A stretch of DNA of 23,503 bases from the IMG/VR virus record IMGVR_UViG_3300024339_000085, positions 1 through 23,503 of that record. One strand, 5' to 3'. This document shows, piece by piece, positions 4,544 through 15,925 of the stretch (positions are counted from its first letter, which is position 1; each line of letters begins with the position of its first letter). The stretch is from a virus. The notes under the pieces were generated by a model. It was given only the letters and a program-made list of their open reading frames with translations, was not told the origin of the DNA and made no database searches. The position numbers were made by a program, and so were the translations under genes.

Positions 4544-4743
4544 ATTGTATGTTATTGTATGTTATTGCATAGTTTTTGTACATTTACAGAGAAATGAAAT
4601 ACACATATAATATACAATATTATACAATAGTATATAATTTTTTTGTTACAATTGAGATACCGCACTAAATAAATAACTGCATATTGTACCACATTTTAAA
4701 ATTGTGTACCATATTTTAATATTTGTATCATATTTTTAAATCT
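4544..4743. repeat. Cluster of ATTGTAY repeats, candidate integrase arm-type sites
   Basis: Heptamers of the form ATTGTAT recur: direct at 4544-4550 and 4554-4560, with ATTGCAT at 4564-4570 (10-bp period). Inverted copies ATACAAT occur at 4612-4618 and 4622-4628 (again 10-bp period). Further direct variants lie at 4683-4689 (ATTGTAC), 4701-4707 (ATTGTGT) and 4722-4728 (TTTGTAT). The last three begin 19-20 bp imperfect repeats of the form GTACCATATTTTAA at 4686, 4706 and 4725. One-helical-turn spacing and position between the attP core and the integrase gene fit arm-type binding sites for the integrase N-terminal domain. Operators for integrase control are the alternative. Confidence 0.45.
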
Positions 4744-4755
4744 AATTCCTGGACC

Positions 4756-5904
4756 ATGAAAACAATTGTAACATATAAATTAATCTTTGATAGAAGAAAA
4801 CATGCAATTAAAACAGGATGTGGAGTTGTTGAATTGGTTGTTTATTTTAAAAATCAAAAAAGAATTTGGATTAATACAAAGCTAAAAATCAAAAAAGAAC
4901 ATTGGAATGATAGTAAAAAAATGGTAACCGCAAAAAATGATCAATATTATAATCACAATATATATTTGAATAATTTTAAAAATGAAATTATAGAATATGA
5001 ATATGATCTATTAAAAAAGGGATCAAAATTAACCCCGGATATTTTAAAAAGTTTTTTAAAAAAAGGTAATGATCCATCATTTATTGATTACTGTTTTGAA
5101 AAATTGAAGATTATAGATATTACAATATCAACAATGAAATCACAAAAAAGATCAATTAATATTTTAAAAGAATTTAATCCAGGATTAAATTTTAATGATC
5201 TTAACCCGGAATTTGTTGATTTATTTAATAATATGTTAAATAAACGCAAATACAGCCCTGGAACAAAATGGAAAATAAATAAGGATATTATAAAATTTGT
5301 AAACCTGGCAATTAGGGATAAAAAAATTGATCAAAATGAACATCCATTTGAATATTTTAAAAACATAAGACCAAAACCAAACCATGATTATTTAACTTTT
5401 AAAGAATTAGAACAAATTGAAATGCTGGAATCAACAGGATTTGAAAGGGTTGATTTAATAAAAGACATGTTTTTATTTGCATGTTATACCGGTTTACGAT
5501 ATTCAGATTTATTTGGGCTTAATTACAGCGATTTTAACAAGCGGGATGGCGGTTTGGTGCTGGTGCTGGAAAGAATGAAAAAAGTGGATAAGAGAGTATT
5601 TCTAAGGCTATATGAATTATTTGATGGTAAACCGGAAAGGTTGATATTACCATATTATAAACAGCATAAAAAAAATAAATTTATTTTTGGAAAAAAGATT
5701 TCCAACCAAGAAATGAACCAGGGTTTAAAAATTATTCAATCCGCTATAAATACTAACAAAACAATTACTGTTCATTTAGCGCGCCATACTTTTGGAACAT
5801 TATATTCCAAAACATCCGGATCAATTTTTGATGTTATGAAAGCAATGGGAATATCAAAATATGAAACAGCAAAAGTTTACATTGATTTAAGTTTAGAACT
5901 ATAA
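4756..5904 (+). CDS. int: Tyrosine-recombinase integrase (Bacteroidetes arm-binding type)
   Basis: The start chosen is the ATG at 4756 (MKTIVTYKLIFDRRK), which fits the usual arm-domain start; a TTG at 4723 would extend it by 11 residues into the repeat region. Of 382 residues, about 1-95 form the arm-type DNA-binding domain, about 105-195 the SAM-like core-binding domain, and about 205-382 the catalytic domain. Catalytic residues seen are R248 (TGLRYSD), H340-x-x-R343 (HLARHTFG) and nucleophile Y375 (KVYIDLS). At the position of the second histidine/tryptophan (normally LGHS) the sequence is MGIS, so I366 replaces it. It should integrate the phage at the tRNA-Asp-like attP just upstream. Its 3' end overlaps the convergent - strand operon by 6 bases, with no terminator between. 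Confidence 0.9.
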   Translation: MKTIVTYKLIFDRRKHAIKTGCGVVELVVYFKNQKRIWINTKLKIKKEHWNDSKKMVTAKNDQYYNHNIYLNNFKNEIIEYEYDLLKKGSKLTPDILKSFLKKGNDPSFIDYCFEKLKIIDITISTMKSQKRSINILKEFNPGLNFNDLNPEFVDLFNNMLNKRKYSPGTKWKINKDIIKFVNLAIRDKKIDQNEHPFEYFKNIRPKPNHDYLTFKELEQIEMLESTGFERVDLIKDMFLFACYTGLRYSDLFGLNYSDFNKRDGGLVLVLERMKKVDKRVFLRLYELFDGKPERLILPYYKQHKKNKFIFGKKISNQEMNQGLKIIQSAINTNKTITVHLARHTFGTLYSKTSGSIFDVMKAMGISKYETAKVYIDLSLEL

Positions 5905-6472: not shown

Positions 6473-6619
6473 TTATTTATAAATTAATTTAATATTATAT
6501 CAACTTTTTATCAATTATGTTGATTTTTTGTTTATATTTGTACAATATTATATACTTAATATCAACTTTGTTCAAATATATATAAAATATATAATATACA
6601 TCATATAATTTATAAAAAT
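6473..6619. promoter_or_regulatory. Divergent control region with operator-like repeats
   Basis: A 147-bp, extremely AT-rich gap between the leftward repressor and rightward early genes. ATATCAACTTT occurs twice as a perfect 11-bp direct repeat (6497-6507 and 6559-6569, 62 bp apart, about six helical turns). Between them 6510-6524 is an inverted repeat ATCAA-5-TTGAT sharing the same core. Bacteroidetes -7-like boxes (TATATTTG) occur rightward at 6533-6540 and, as CAAATATA, leftward at 6573-6580. Neither has a well-placed TTG at -33. The repeats are candidate repressor operators. Confidence 0.5.
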
Positions 6620-10084: not shown

Positions 10085-10417
10085 ATGCCAATATTTCCAA
10101 AATCAAAAAAAAGATCATGGGTTGCTGAAAACAAACCCCAGGTTGGGCGAAAGGTAACAAACCCATTTTATCACACAACACCCTGGCGCAAATTTAGAAA
10201 TGCATACATAAAAGAAAATCCCCTTTGTGTAGATTGTTATTTAAATGATAAAATTAAACCTGGGAAGGTGGTGGACCACATTAAACAGATCAACCGGGTT
10301 GATGCTTATAATACGGAATTTGGATATTATGGTGATCCATTAAGTGAATCAAATGTTCAAACATTATGTACCCATCACCATGCGATTAAAAGTGGAAAAG
10401 AAAGGTGGAATAAATGA
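10085..10417 (+). CDS. HNH endonuclease (phage packaging-associated type)
   Basis: The start taken is the ATG at 10085, one base after the preceding stop, giving 110 residues. Motifs are FYHTTPWRKFRNAYIKENP, a first Cys pair (LCVDC), the HNH core VVDHIKQI, an Asn (SESNVQ) and a second zinc pair LCTHHHAIKS. This is the small HNH type normally found just upstream of terminase genes in HK97-like phages, where it helps terminase cut cos DNA (HK97 gp74 family). Here a recombinase gene separates it from the terminases. Its stop overlaps the next start (ATGA). Confidence 0.85.
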   Translation: MPIFPKSKKRSWVAENKPQVGRKVTNPFYHTTPWRKFRNAYIKENPLCVDCYLNDKIKPGKVVDHIKQINRVDAYNTEFGYYGDPLSESNVQTLCTHHHAIKSGKERWNK

Positions 10418-11331
10418 AACATGCTTTGGATGATTTAATAAATCTGTTTATCCAGGAAAAAGATGTATCAAAAATTTCATTGGTCCAATATTCATTTGGG
10501 TTAAATAAATTTTATAAATGGGCGGTTAATGAAAATAAATTATTGACAGGGTTAACAACAGCCGACATGATCAAATATAAAAGATATTTATCTGAATTAA
10601 AATATACACATTTAACAATCAGTAATTATTTGGGATCGGTTAGGTTGTTTTATAAATGGGTTGAACTAAATGAATTTGGAAATGATATTACTAAAACATT
10701 GCGGATCAACAAAAATTATTCAACATTTAGAAAAAAATCATTAAACATTAATCAATCAGTAAAGTTTTTAAAACAATTTAACACAAAAACATTAATGGGC
10801 AAAAGAAATTTTGCCATTGCAAATTTACTTTTACGGAATGGATTACGAGAAATTGAAGTTGCCCGGATGGATGTTGAAGATGTATTTGAATATAATGATC
10901 GCTGGGCAATTAGGTTGCAAAGAAAAGGGAGAAGCGGGAAGGATGATGTATTGCCATTGAGTGAAAAAGCAAAAGAAGCCATTGAAGATTATTTATTGCA
11001 CAGAAACACAGATTTCCAGGATAGCAGCCCGCTATTTGTTAGCTTATCAAAAGCGAATAAATACAAAAGAATCTCAACACATTTTATCAGCGTTATGATT
11101 AAACAAAAGCTAATCCAGGCGGGTATTGTTGGCAAAATGTTTACTGCCCATTCATTGCGCCATACATGTGCAACATTATTAATTGCTGATGGGCATTCTG
11201 AATATAGTGTAAAAACTTTCATGGGGCATAGAAATTTTACATCAACCCAAATTTATACAAGACAAAAAGAAACTGAAATGATATTTAATAACAGCCCGGC
11301 AAAACTGTTGGATGAGATGATAAGTAATTAA
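10414..11331 (+). CDS. Second tyrosine recombinase (XerC/D-like)
   Basis: A 305-residue XerC/D-sized protein without an arm-binding domain. About 1-95 is the SAM-like core-binding domain (SLVQYSFGLNKFYKWAV). About 120-300 is the catalytic domain with the complete set: R145 (NGLREIEVARM), K171 (RKGRSGKDD), H246-x-x-R249 (HSLRHTCAT), H272 (MGHRNFTST) and nucleophile Y281. The start overlaps the HNH stop (ATGA), so it is co-expressed in the replication/packaging operon rather than with the lysogeny genes. Possible roles are dimer resolution of circular genomes, DNA inversion, or the real integration reaction. Confidence 0.9.
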   Translation: MKHALDDLINLFIQEKDVSKISLVQYSFGLNKFYKWAVNENKLLTGLTTADMIKYKRYLSELKYTHLTISNYLGSVRLFYKWVELNEFGNDITKTLRINKNYSTFRKKSLNINQSVKFLKQFNTKTLMGKRNFAIANLLLRNGLREIEVARMDVEDVFEYNDRWAIRLQRKGRSGKDDVLPLSEKAKEAIEDYLLHRNTDFQDSSPLFVSLSKANKYKRISTHFISVMIKQKLIQAGIVGKMFTAHSLRHTCATLLIADGHSEYSVKTFMGHRNFTSTQIYTRQKETEMIFNNSPAKLLDEMISN

Positions 11332-12580: not shown

Positions 12581-12646
12581 ATGGGATTTAAAAAAGGAAA
12601 TAAATTTGGTAAAAGAAGTATTTATATATTTTTAAAAGCATTATAA
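12581..12646 (+). CDS. Mini-ORF (21 residues) coupled to terL, possible gene remnant
   Basis: Reads MGFKKGNKFGKRSIYIFLKA, ending in a stop that overlaps the terL start (TAATG). The FKKGNKFGK start resembles the beginning of some phage nuclease-associated or small terminase-like proteins that continue GRP, so it may be the truncated head of a gene lost at the HNH insertion edge. It could also be a leader peptide for terL. Too short to be sure. Confidence 0.3.
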   Translation: MGFKKGNKFGKRSIYIFLKAL

Positions 12647-14223
12647 TGGAAATGCCAAGTAAATATTTTTATGATAAAAAAGCAGCAGAAAAAGCTGTTA
12701 ATTGGATTGAAAAATATGTTACCCATGTAAAGGGTGAATTACAAGGTAAACCCGTAATTTTAGAAGATTGGCAAAAAAATGATATTGTAAAACCATTGTT
12801 TGGTTGGAAAAATAAACAAACTAAATTAAGAAAATACAGAACTATTTATATTGAATTACCCCGGAAAAATGCGAAATCAACCCTGGCAGCAGCAATTGGA
12901 TTATATCTATTAACAGCAGATGGTGAACCCGGTGCTGAAATATATAGTGCGGCAGCTGATCGCGGGCAGGCTGGGATTATTTTTGATGTTGCCAAAAGAA
13001 TGGTGATCCAAAGAAAAGCATTATCAATGAGGGTTAACACCTGGAGAAATTCAATTGAATATCCAAAAACCGGATCACATTACAAAGCCATATCCGCAGA
13101 TGCATCAACAAAGCATGGTTTTAACGCGCATGGAATTATTTTTGATGAACTGCATACACAAAAAAACAGGGAATTATTTGATGTACTAACAACATCGGTT
13201 GGTTCAAGGCGGCAACCGGTAACCCTGTTACTAACAACAGCTGGTACAGATCGCAATTCAATTTGTTATGAAATGCATGAATATGCGCGAAAAGTAAAGG
13301 ATGGAGTAATTAAAGATGATACATTTTTAGGCATAGTTTATTCTGCACCCAAAGAAATGGATATTTTTGATCTTAAAACTTGGAAGCTGGCAAACCCTGG
13401 TTTTGGATCAATAGTTAAAGCTGATTATATTGAATCCGAAGCACAGCGAATAAGAAACAACCCAAACCGCGAAAATGCGTTTCGGCAATTACATTTAAAT
13501 CAATGGACCAGTTCAATTTATTCATGGGTTTCAGATGATGTATGGATGGCATGTAATTTAGAAAAAATTAATGAAGCTGATTTTTATGGTTCTGATGTTG
13601 TTTTGGGATTGGATTTAGCATCAACGGATGATACAACATCTTTAATTTGTTTGTTTGTTGATGGTGCAAATATATTGGGGATTATGCCATTTATTTGGAT
13701 ACCCCAGGAAATGATTGAAACAAGGCAAAACCGGGGTGATCTACTCTATAAAAATTGGCATGACCAGGGCTATTTATTATCAACACCTGGAAATGTAACT
13801 GATTACCGGATAATAGAAGATACCATTTTAAAAATACATGATAAATTTAATATTAAAAAAATTGGTTTTGACAAATGGAACAGCAGCCAACTAATTATTA
13901 ATCTAACTGATTCAATTGATCCAAATGTATTTGATAAGGTTGAAATGAATATTGGTAATTTATCCGAACCAACAAAGCGTTTTTATTCACTTATAAAAAA
14001 CAAGAAAATAAATCATGGCGGGCATCCAGTATTGCGCTGGATGATGTCAAATGTGATGATATGGCAAGATACAAATGAAAATATAAGACCATCAAAAAAA
14101 AGCAGTACAGATAAAATTGATGGAATTATGGCAATCATTATTGCCCTGGCATCCTTTTGGAGTAACCCGGAAAATGATGATATTGATAAAAGATTTTTAA
14201 ATGATGGTTTCACTAAAATATAA
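12646..14223 (+). CDS. terL: Terminase large subunit (HK97-type)
   Basis: The 525-residue product is a complete Terminase_1-type packaging motor. ATPase domain: adenine-binding LEDWQ near 40, Walker A PRKNAKST at 72-79, Walker B IIFDELH with D167/E168, and coupling motif LLLTTAGTDR near 196. Nuclease domain: D323 (VLGLDLAST), DKWNSS near 409 and DKIDGIMAI near 490 supply the metal-binding acids. It pumps DNA into the procapsid using ATP and cuts concatemers. The start overlaps the mini-ORF stop; MEMPSKYFYDKKAAEKAVN fits relatives. TerL of this group usually goes with cos-type packaging. Confidence 0.95.
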   Translation: MEMPSKYFYDKKAAEKAVNWIEKYVTHVKGELQGKPVILEDWQKNDIVKPLFGWKNKQTKLRKYRTIYIELPRKNAKSTLAAAIGLYLLTADGEPGAEIYSAAADRGQAGIIFDVAKRMVIQRKALSMRVNTWRNSIEYPKTGSHYKAISADASTKHGFNAHGIIFDELHTQKNRELFDVLTTSVGSRRQPVTLLLTTAGTDRNSICYEMHEYARKVKDGVIKDDTFLGIVYSAPKEMDIFDLKTWKLANPGFGSIVKADYIESEAQRIRNNPNRENAFRQLHLNQWTSSIYSWVSDDVWMACNLEKINEADFYGSDVVLGLDLASTDDTTSLICLFVDGANILGIMPFIWIPQEMIETRQNRGDLLYKNWHDQGYLLSTPGNVTDYRIIEDTILKIHDKFNIKKIGFDKWNSSQLIINLTDSIDPNVFDKVEMNIGNLSEPTKRFYSLIKNKKINHGGHPVLRWMMSNVMIWQDTNENIRPSKKSSTDKIDGIMAIIIALASFWSNPENDDIDKRFLNDGFTKI

Positions 14224-14228
14224 TTAAA

Positions 14229-14435
14229 ATGTTAGATGAAAAAGCAAAATTATTAATGACCGCAAAAGGATATGACAAAGCATTTACCAATATTTTATCC
14301 AGCGCAAAAGTAACAACCCAGGTTGAAGCATTTAAAATTTTGGAACAGGAATATAAAAGTTATTTTGGAAAAACTAAATATACCAATTTTCAGAGTTACC
14401 GACAAGCCAGGGATAAAAGATTAAAAAGAAAATAA
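14229..14435 (+). CDS. Small protein downstream of terL, unknown
   Basis: A 68-residue basic helical protein (LMTAKGYDKAFTNILSSAKV, QVEAFKILEQEYKSYF, SYRQARDKRLKRK) starting 5 bases after terL. It has no motif or membrane segment, but codon use and spacing are those of the operon. A DNA-packaging accessory role is a guess from position only. Confidence 0.6.
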   Translation: MLDEKAKLLMTAKGYDKAFTNILSSAKVTTQVEAFKILEQEYKSYFGKTKYTNFQSYRQARDKRLKRK

Positions 14436-14580
14436 TAAATGTATTTTTTGTGGTTCACATAAAACGCGGAGATTTAAAATATATTTGAAGGGAAAATCAA
14501 AGTCTTTGTTTAATTAATGATCTTATTGATGCAATCCAACAATGGTGCGAAAAACCCACATAATTTTATAAGTTATCAAC

Positions 14581-14634
14581 AAAGGTTGTTCAAAGAAAGG
14601 TAACATGATGTTGATAGAAAGGTAACCAAGTTAC
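14581..14634. repeat. AAAGGT repeats upstream of the late promoter
   Basis: AAAGGT occurs at 14581-14586, 14596-14601 and 14618-14623. The last two lie within a perfect 10-bp direct repeat GAAAGGTAAC (14595-14604 and 14617-14626, 22 bp apart, about two turns). The second copy forms GTAAC-CAA-GTTAC (14622-14634), ending just before the -33 element. This is a natural place for a late-gene activator to bind. Confidence 0.45.
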
Positions 14635-14635
14635 A

Positions 14636-14666
14636 TTGACAAATTTTTAATCCCGCCATATTTTTG
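14636..14666 (+). promoter_or_regulatory. Bacteroidetes-type late promoter for the head/tail operon
   Basis: TTG at 14636-14638 (within TTGACA) and TATTTTTG at 14659-14666, separated by 20 bp, match the Bacteroidetes primary-sigma consensus TTG / TAnnTTTG with correct spacing. Transcription would start near 14671, leaving a leader of only about 20 bases before the portal ATG at 14690. Confidence 0.65.
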
Positions 14667-14667
14667 C

Positions 14668-14694
14668 GCCATACATTTTTTAAAAAAGTATGGC
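14668..14694 (+). promoter_or_regulatory. Hairpin covering the portal start codon
   Basis: Arms GCCATAC (14668-14674) and GTATGGC (14688-14694) pair perfectly, and the interior (TTTTTTAAAAAA at 14676-14687) can pair with itself, giving a nearly full 27-base palindrome with one unpaired A. The ATG at 14690 lies in the right arm. The hairpin would sit at the very 5' end of the late mRNA; alternatively the DNA palindrome binds a protein. Confidence 0.5.
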
Positions 14695-15925
14695 ATCAAC
14701 AAAATATAAAATTTTTGGCATTCCTGTATGGGAAAAACGAAGTTCAGATTTAGGAACTTATAAAAACCCATCTTCCAGGTTAGTTGATATTATGGGCGGT
14801 GAATCATCAACCGGTATTGCAGTTACCCAACAAACTGCATTAACATTTTCAGCAGTTTGGGCATGTGTTAGAATATTATCAAATACAGTTGCCATGCTGC
14901 CATTTGGTGTTTATAAACAATCAAATGGAGAAAAACAATATTCACCAAAACATCCCATTCATCCAATAATTCATTCAGAACCCAATAAAATAATGTCTGC
15001 GTTCACCTGGCGGCAGGTAATGCAATCACATGCTACTTTGAAGGGAAATGCATATTCAATAATAAAAAGAAACGGATCATACCGACCAACAGAATTAAAA
15101 TTAATTCAAAACCCGGATGATGTGCAGCCGTTTGAATATAATGATGATCTGTTTTATAAAATAAAGGGTTATGATAATCCTTTCCAGGCAGATGATGTTT
15201 TTCATATTCGCGGGATTGGATTTGATGGAATACAAGGTAAATCAGTTTTAACTGTTGCCAGGGAAAGCATTGGATCAGCTTTAGCAATGCAGAAATATGG
15301 CGGCACTATTTTTAAAAATGGTGGGGCAAAGCGGGTTGCATTAACACATAATAGTGTTGTAAAGGATGTAAATGCGCGTAAAAACATTTTGAACAGTTGG
15401 AATGATACCTATGGCGGAGCTAATAAATTAAATGATGTTGCATTAATTGATGGTGGTTTTGATGTTAAGGAAATTGGAATGAATCCGGAAGATGCGCAAT
15501 TTATTGGATCGCGTGAATTTTCAGTTAATGAAATTGCAAGGTATTTTGGTTTGATCATGGATTTATTGGCAACCGATAAAAACCCAACCTATGCATCAGC
15601 AGAACAAAGAGCAATTGATTTTATAAAATATACAATGACACCCTGGCTGGTAACATGGGAAAGTGAAGTTAACAGAAAATTATTTAATGAATCTGAAAAA
15701 TCAGATTATTATTCAAAATTTACATTGGAAGGATTATTACGCGGAGATGCAAAAGCCAGGGCGGAATATTACAAGGATATGTTTTATATCGGTGCATTAA
15801 ACCGGGATGAAATACGAGCATTGGAAGAAAGAAATAAAATAGTTGGCGGTGATAAATATTATTTGCAAACCAACATGGCAGAAGCAAATGATTTAGAAAA
15901 AATACATGATAAAACCAAATCATAA
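14690..15925 (+). CDS. Portal protein (HK97-type)
   Basis: The 411-residue protein follows the phage portal pattern: AVTQQTALTFSAVWACVRIL near 44-63, SNTVAMLPFGVYK, WRQVMQSHATLKGNAYSII, LKLIQNPDDVQPF, DDVFHIRGIGFDGIQGKS, the KNGGAKRVAL segment, VNEIARYFGL near 280, then FTLEGLLRGDAKARAEYYKD and the C-terminal ALNRDEIRALE. It forms the 12-subunit ring at the capsid vertex through which DNA enters and leaves and where terminase and tail attach. The length is typical. It is the first gene after the late promoter, and its start codon lies within a hairpin. Its stop abuts the protease ATG. Confidence 0.95.
   Translation: MASTKYKIFGIPVWEKRSSDLGTYKNPSSRLVDIMGGESSTGIAVTQQTALTFSAVWACVRILSNTVAMLPFGVYKQSNGEKQYSPKHPIHPIIHSEPNKIMSAFTWRQVMQSHATLKGNAYSIIKRNGSYRPTELKLIQNPDDVQPFEYNDDLFYKIKGYDNPFQADDVFHIRGIGFDGIQGKSVLTVARESIGSALAMQKYGGTIFKNGGAKRVALTHNSVVKDVNARKNILNSWNDTYGGANKLNDVALIDGGFDVKEIGMNPEDAQFIGSREFSVNEIARYFGLIMDLLATDKNPTYASAEQRAIDFIKYTMTPWLVTWESEVNRKLFNESEKSDYYSKFTLEGLLRGDAKARAEYYKDMFYIGALNRDEIRALEERNKIVGGDKYYLQTNMAEANDLEKIHDKTKS

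Follow-up and report, generated by a model that had tools for sequence, protein, structure and literature searches.

Introduction

In the transposable elements IS10 and IS50, read-through RNA folds over the transposase start, and RNA from the inner promoter lacks one arm of the fold. At class II activator-dependent promoters, and with phage late activators such as P2 Ogr, a palindrome lies at a fixed spacing beside the -35/-33 element. In phage T4 (e, soc, 49, I-TevI and segB) and phage Aeh1 (mobE), the translation start is sequestered in the long early RNA and freed in the late RNA (PMC3014915, PMC2988022). Bacteroidota ribosomes are not reliant on Shine-Dalgarno pairing, and in Flavobacterium johnsoniae the structure around the start codon modulates initiation (PMC6847099). 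A masked start codon could therefore plausibly act as a brake on translation in these hosts.

The portal locus of the window, the whole 23,503-nt stretch of viral DNA analysed here, can be compared with each of these systems. As in T4, a predicted hairpin lies over the translation start in longer transcripts, the RNA of the putative late promoter would lack the 5' arm, and the fold is kept in close relatives; the pairing of the start region in longer transcripts is a prediction. Unlike the T4 cases, the locus belongs to other phages and hosts, and its promoters carry the -7 element TAnnTTTG of Bacteroidota rather than the gp55/gp33 late promoter. The start codon itself would be masked, without a Shine-Dalgarno sequence, the portal is the first structural gene of its operon, and the -7 box is often part of the arm. 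The predicted portal hairpin occurs in many divergent phages, not in one group, and shares no sequence with the T4 cases. The likeness to IS10 and IS50 consists in protection from external transcription by the arm-less RNA of an inner promoter, whereas their arm comes from the terminal inverted repeat at the ends of a transposable element and has no homology to the portal hairpin. The portal hairpin is not a member of the T4 or the IS10/IS50 system by descent. Like a class II promoter, the portal promoter has a palindrome at a fixed distance beside the -33 region (peak at 23/24 bp), and the -33 element is dispensable in many members; it differs in being of the Bacteroidota type with the palindrome at -42/-43. 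A literature search of incomplete coverage found no description of such an arrangement, and no described late promoter, in Bacteroidota phages.

We consider it likely that the palindrome at the portal start of the window is this phage's version of a conserved RNA switch that masks the portal AUG in read-through mRNA.

Results

Promoter and palindrome at the portal start

The features of the locus are collected in Table 1. A sequence-only reading had described a promoter with TTG and TATTTTTG 20 bp apart, followed after 2 bp by a near-perfect 27-bp palindrome with the ATG of a portal gene in its right arm. The promoter-like sequence (14636-14666), the palindrome (14668-14694) and the identity of the gene are borne out; the gap is 1 nt (14667). 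The arms of the inverted repeat are 13 bp long, with 12 of 13 positions complementary around a centre of 1 nt, and the ATG occupies 14690-14692.

Table 1. Features of the portal locus in the window, in order of position.
Feature	Position	Strand	Remarks
terL	12646-14223	+	TerL_ATPase, TerL_nuclease; upstream gene of the proposed read-through transcript
ORF68, small conserved all-helical protein	14229-14435	+	Between terL and portal; part of the proposed read-through source
GGTAAC, second operator half-site copy	14599-14604	+	Direct reading; possible second site
Perfect 13-bp palindrome GTAACCAAGTTAC	14622-14634	+	Putative activator operator, centre ~-43; palindromicity peak in relatives
TTG, -33 element	14636-14638	+	Direct reading; absent in many relatives
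Left arm 1, GCCATATTTTT	14655-14665	+	Overlaps the -7 box, ahead of the predicted start; partner 14684-14694
TATTTTTG, -7 element	14659-14666	+	Fits TAnnTTTG; equally placed with respect to the operator in relatives
Left arm 2, GCCATACATTTTT	14668-14680	+	Inverted repeat I6; GCC of the arm precedes the predicted start
Predicted transcription start, A	14671	+	Flavobacterium promoter spacing (PMC6847099)
Right arm, AAAAAAGTATGGC	14682-14694	+	Inverted repeat; contains the portal ATG
Portal protein gene, 411 aa	14690-15925	+	PHROG 12, E 2e-101

By count, neither element stands out. The motif TTG-N20-TAnnTTTG is not above chance (one in the window versus 1.4 expected from shuffles), and palindromes with 13-nt arms and at most one mismatch are not significantly enriched (one versus 0.42 expected in window shuffles). 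The latter count fits an origin by chance, in which AT-rich DNA yields palindromes and the TTTG of the -7 box pairs with CAAA near start codons. The unusual part is the position of the palindrome exactly on the start codon, for which motif counts give an estimated chance of roughly 0.001.

The G of the -7 box lies at -5 in Flavobacterium promoters (PMC6847099), which places the predicted start at A14671; transcription would therefore leave out the GCC of left arm 2 and give a 19-nt leader. The earlier reading had called the 5' end near-leaderless. A predicted leader of ~19 nt is ordinary, the most common length in Bacteroides thetaiotaomicron being 23 nt (PMC7366714) and the mean in F. johnsoniae 33 nt (PMC6847099).

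For read-through RNA spanning 14640-14705, the predicted fold has an energy of -11.8 kcal/mol (z -3.4; matched by 1 of 200 shuffles), with a predicted value of 0.00 for the unpaired start codon. Left arm 1 gives the best duplex, at -13.9 kcal/mol (shuffle p 0.010). Late RNA of the window, starting at A14671, is predicted to be no more stable than its shuffled versions (z 0.17). A weak AUAC/GUAU stem is predicted to stay in it, with values of 0.15 for the unpaired codon and 0.51 for the unpaired region, and because this stem leaves the AUG mostly paired, release in the window is predicted to be partial. Elsewhere in the terL-portal gap, TATATTTG at 14480-14487 (+ strand) is a possible second promoter, whose long-leader RNA would include the hairpin.

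Start-codon pairing in relatives

Relatives were obtained from portal searches of viral contigs and genomes of marine, saline and gut origin. The set comprises 36 relatives, with 23 representatives below 70% identity in the promoter-start region. Membership was decided by operator or portal kinship plus a -7 box and not by the hairpin, except for L568, a poor scorer in the pairing test; for GTG and TTG starts the codon was picked by homology and position. Pattern scans of all viral contigs, unguided by the portal, brought up the same arrangement ahead of additional portal genes (L266, L382). No close cultured phage with the same arrangement was found, the best portal identity being below 60%.

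Five near-identical contigs (L001-L004, L014) keep the promoter and the palindrome, three of the five differing by one A in an A-run; being near-identical, they do not discriminate between explanations. At 79% portal identity (L005/L019), the exact palindrome is absent and a different start-codon inverted repeat is present. A conserved palindrome sequence acting as operator was rejected, since it is gone already at this identity.

Across the relatives, the portal start codon finds its complement in promoter DNA that precedes the predicted start, whether within the spacer, across the -7 box or directly behind it. The sequences vary, as do the loops (1-32 nt), and the geometry is kept. In L600, CCACCTCAT in the spacer pairs with ATGAGGTGG at the start. 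The corresponding partners are CACTTCAT and ATGAAGTG in L597, CTGTTTCAT and ATGAAGCGG in L619 (two G-U pairs), ATCCGTATC and GATGCGGAT in L604 (one G-U pair, left arm in the spacer), ATATTGCCGT and ACGGCAATAT in L025, and CCATACATTTG and CAAATGCATGG in L019. L071 pairs CATGGTGC with GCGCCATG, its left arm ending upstream of the -7 box, which lies in the loop; L591 pairs GTTTGCACCG with CGGTGTCAAAC at a GTG start, and L618 pairs TTTGCATC with GATGCAAA. The clear hairpin cases are L597, L600, L100, L025, L071, L604 and L591. Pairing is not significant in the tested regions of L021, L266, L382, L011, L599 and L568.

A portal-like arrangement was also seen at a second gene, which encodes an unknown protein of at most 110 aa in the marine L029-type phage L279. 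Here, AAGTAATAAAGCTTATC, TATATTTG and ATGGATGAGCTTTATTACTT follow each other on the minus strand (~5690-5590; -26 kcal/mol, z -6).

Pairing strength and covariation

Among the 23 representatives, own arms pair at -15.5 kcal/mol and swapped arms at -10.0 kcal/mol (z -8.4, p 5e-6; none of 200,000 permutations was better). The Fisher combined value over dinucleotide shuffles is 1.6e-12, and 247 control gene starts average -8.1 kcal/mol (Mann-Whitney 4e-8). The own-versus-swapped signal persists in non-gut phages only (z -5.3) and after clustering at 60% (z -4.4). This test retains the compositional biases on which an origin by chance depends, and still reaches z -8. Moreover, the other TAnnTTTG-plus-start pairs of the same phages (n=51) show nothing, with a median z of -0.09 versus -1.95 at portals (p 1e-5). 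Chance is refuted for the family, and we hold it to be a highly improbable account of the palindrome.

Compensatory changes accompany the pairing. Four pairs are altered on both sides within the group of L597, L600, L601, L619, L100 and L169; for L597, L600 and L619, 91% of cells are paired, and covariation exceeds that of 500 of 500 shuffles and of all slid registers. Folding favours the coding strand over its complement in 19 of 23 representatives (p 7e-4), and in 16 of 23 with the strictest left boundary (p 0.011), which argues for RNA over DNA. Rfam gave no match above the gathering score, only chance-level hits.

These results bear on an operator at the DNA level, which the sequence-only reading had offered as its alternative together with a comparison of compensatory changes against strict base conservation. 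A repressor dimer covering the -7 box, the start site and the start codon would then block the late promoter. Such a role would suit palindromic DNA that directly follows the -7 box, and the direct repeat of GCCATA at 14655 and 14668. Against it, neither arm sequence nor spacing is conserved (loops of 1 to 32 nt), the stems contain G-U pairs, the coding strand is preferred in folding, and in several phages the left arm already ends before the -7 box (L071) or within the spacer (L604). We regard a DNA operator over the start codon as unlikely.

The position of the left arm indicates which transcript carries the hairpin. Pairing stays significant when the left region is truncated at the predicted start site (z -7.9) or at the end of the -7 box (z -7.0), and when it is confined to the spacer (z -5.1). 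Given the start assumed from Flavobacterium (PMC6847099), most or all of the left arm in relatives, and only part of arm 2 in the window, precedes it. The promoter's RNA would therefore lack all or part of the left arm, and the hairpin would belong to the read-through RNA. The earlier reading had placed it in the promoter's own transcript, with translation control or coupling to a factor. This would be classical translational control at the 5' end, in which a phage or host factor would have to open the hairpin. Most of the window palindrome does lie downstream of the predicted start, the late RNA retains its weak stem, and in the prophage L626 three of seven pairs are downstream. However, the late RNA of the window is indistinguishable from shuffles, the pairing in relatives is significant with a left side that ends at the -7 box or spacer, outside the promoter's transcript, and L071 and L025 would have almost no leader. 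A hairpin in the promoter's own transcript is, in our estimate, quite improbable. Of the original interpretation, the masking of the AUG by RNA structure is thus the part that the compensatory changes support, and the promoter's own transcript as hairpin carrier is the part without support.

Exposure of the start is likewise predicted to differ between the two RNAs. For the region -6 to +8, the median predicted unpaired value is 0.31 in read-through RNA and 0.58 in late RNA (p 2e-7); for the start codon in read-through RNA the predicted median is 0.03.

Later broad genome searches yielded few new Bacteroidota prophages. L626 is the sole later Bacteroidales prophage with a recognisable promoter and has the geometry of the window: GCGACaatGTCTA at 23 bp, TACGTTTG, and an inverted repeat CCATAGA/TCTATGG whose right arm contains the ATG. 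Its hairpin is visible by folding; it does not stand out in the strict left-arm duplex test (z 0.6) because the left arm straddles the start site. In L625, a terminator-like repeat was read by eye in place of the hairpin.

A second palindrome upstream of the promoter

The conserved 13-bp palindrome upstream of the promoter is a second conserved part of the locus, which the sequence-only reading missed. A distance of 23 or 24 bp separates it from the -7 box downstream, which puts it 1 bp before the -33 position, with its centre at -42/-43 if transcription starts 4 nt after the -7 box. An offset scan in the relatives gives 3.1 of 5 pairs at 23 bp versus an average of 1.4, and at most 2.1 outside 23/24. 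The arms vary symmetrically (GTAAC/GTTAC, GCAAC/GTTGC, GGAAC/GTTCC, TTAAC/GTTAA, TGAAC/GTTCA), which fits the site of a dimer. Examples are GTAACattGTTAC (L019), GCAACattGTTGC (L011), GGAACattGTTCC (L012), GGAACaatGTTCC (L025), TTAACattGTTAA (L382), TGAACattGTTCA (L618) and TGACCgatGGTCA (L591). The additional GGTAAC half-site of the window lies 22 bp upstream of the copy at 14621-14626; The complete site occurs twice in each of two phages (L025:2270-2330, L027:3430-3490); the copies are 26 bp apart in both, although the intervening sequence differs.

Judging from the symmetry and placement of this site, a dimeric activator probably drives the portal promoter. The TTG at -33 is missing in many members; this would fit activator dependence and is only suggestive, since F. 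johnsoniae promoters have a weak -33 motif in general (PMC6847099), and the absence of TTG is no proof of an activator. An operator-pattern match, GTAACCCTGTTAC, was also noted inside terL (13219-13231). TATCAAC/GTTGAT repeats, possibly repressor sites, occur between divergent early genes (6473-6619) and upstream of the portal promoter (14573-14617).

Upstream genes and terminators

terL and the small gene lie upstream of the portal and are co-directional with it. ORF68 has an equivalent place in the window, L019, L266, L011, L012 and gut phages, from marine to gut, and belongs to no Pfam or NCBIfam family. Its four-helix AlphaFold model (pLDDT 93) matches only uncharacterised phage proteins, so the fold gives no support for a DNA-binding role. 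The small gene reaches close to the promoter in gut phages such as L618, L591 and L612, where just 30-37 nt separate its stop from the -7 box. L597, L600 and L604, also from the gut, carry extra genes in either orientation between terL and the portal promoter.

Proteins with DnaA domain IV are encoded in the window, L019, L025 and L027, and a similar sequence was recognised by eye in L266; in L025 and L027 the gene takes the place of ORF68 just upstream of the promoter. As a possible portal regulator, suggested by its gene position, this protein was set aside. Two tyrosine-recombinase-like proteins (4723-5904 and 10414-11331, from sequence and cross-hits) have counterparts in L019, and the gene of the second lies just upstream of terS.

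No intrinsic terminator (G+C-rich stem plus U-run) is present in 14200-14720 of the window, and none precedes the portal in 35 of 36 members. The exception is L021, in which a terminator is present and the hairpin absent. With near-duplicates removed, the mutual exclusion of terminator and hairpin is only suggestive (4 vs 25, p 0.026). The marine phages L029, L030, L049, L052, L056, L076, L082 and L087 carry a terminator-like stem and T-run immediately before the portal -7 box. Marine phages of the L029 type have weak pairing alongside terminators.

Discussion

We propose that RNA reading through from terS, terL and ORF68 into the portal gene would fold such that the AUG pairs with an arm encoded in the late promoter, and that portal translation would thereby be blocked. 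The portal promoter would then fire, probably through a dimeric activator at the -42/-43 palindrome. Late mRNA starting inside or downstream of the left arm would lose or weaken the hairpin, and the portal would be translated. The outcome would be insulation of the structural genes from early or lysogenic read-through without a terminator. With regard to timing, we infer that structural protein is probably made only once the phage switches the portal promoter on.

More tentatively, a general rule may apply to Bacteroidota siphophages, though we would not yet lean on it: the terL-portal border would be insulated by either a terminator or a promoter-split hairpin, and the promoter would be driven by late activators of a single palindrome-binding family. 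If this rule were true, one promoter DNA would hold three overlapping codes, namely the operator, the -7 box and the anti-start-codon RNA arm.

If true, the switch would supply a logic by which late genes are controlled in Bacteroidota phages. On this view terL and the portal, adjacent and co-directional, should be uncoupled at translation, and the location of the operator tells where to seek the late activator. In L597, L600 and L604, the hairpin would shield the portal from transcription of the inserted genes, and prophages could keep the portal silent while the upstream neighbour gene is transcribed. The T4 trick of a promoter-split start-codon hairpin would thus occur in many lineages, presumably independently, with ribosomes that do not use Shine-Dalgarno pairing; where such pairing is unused, masking of the start codon may be the main handle.
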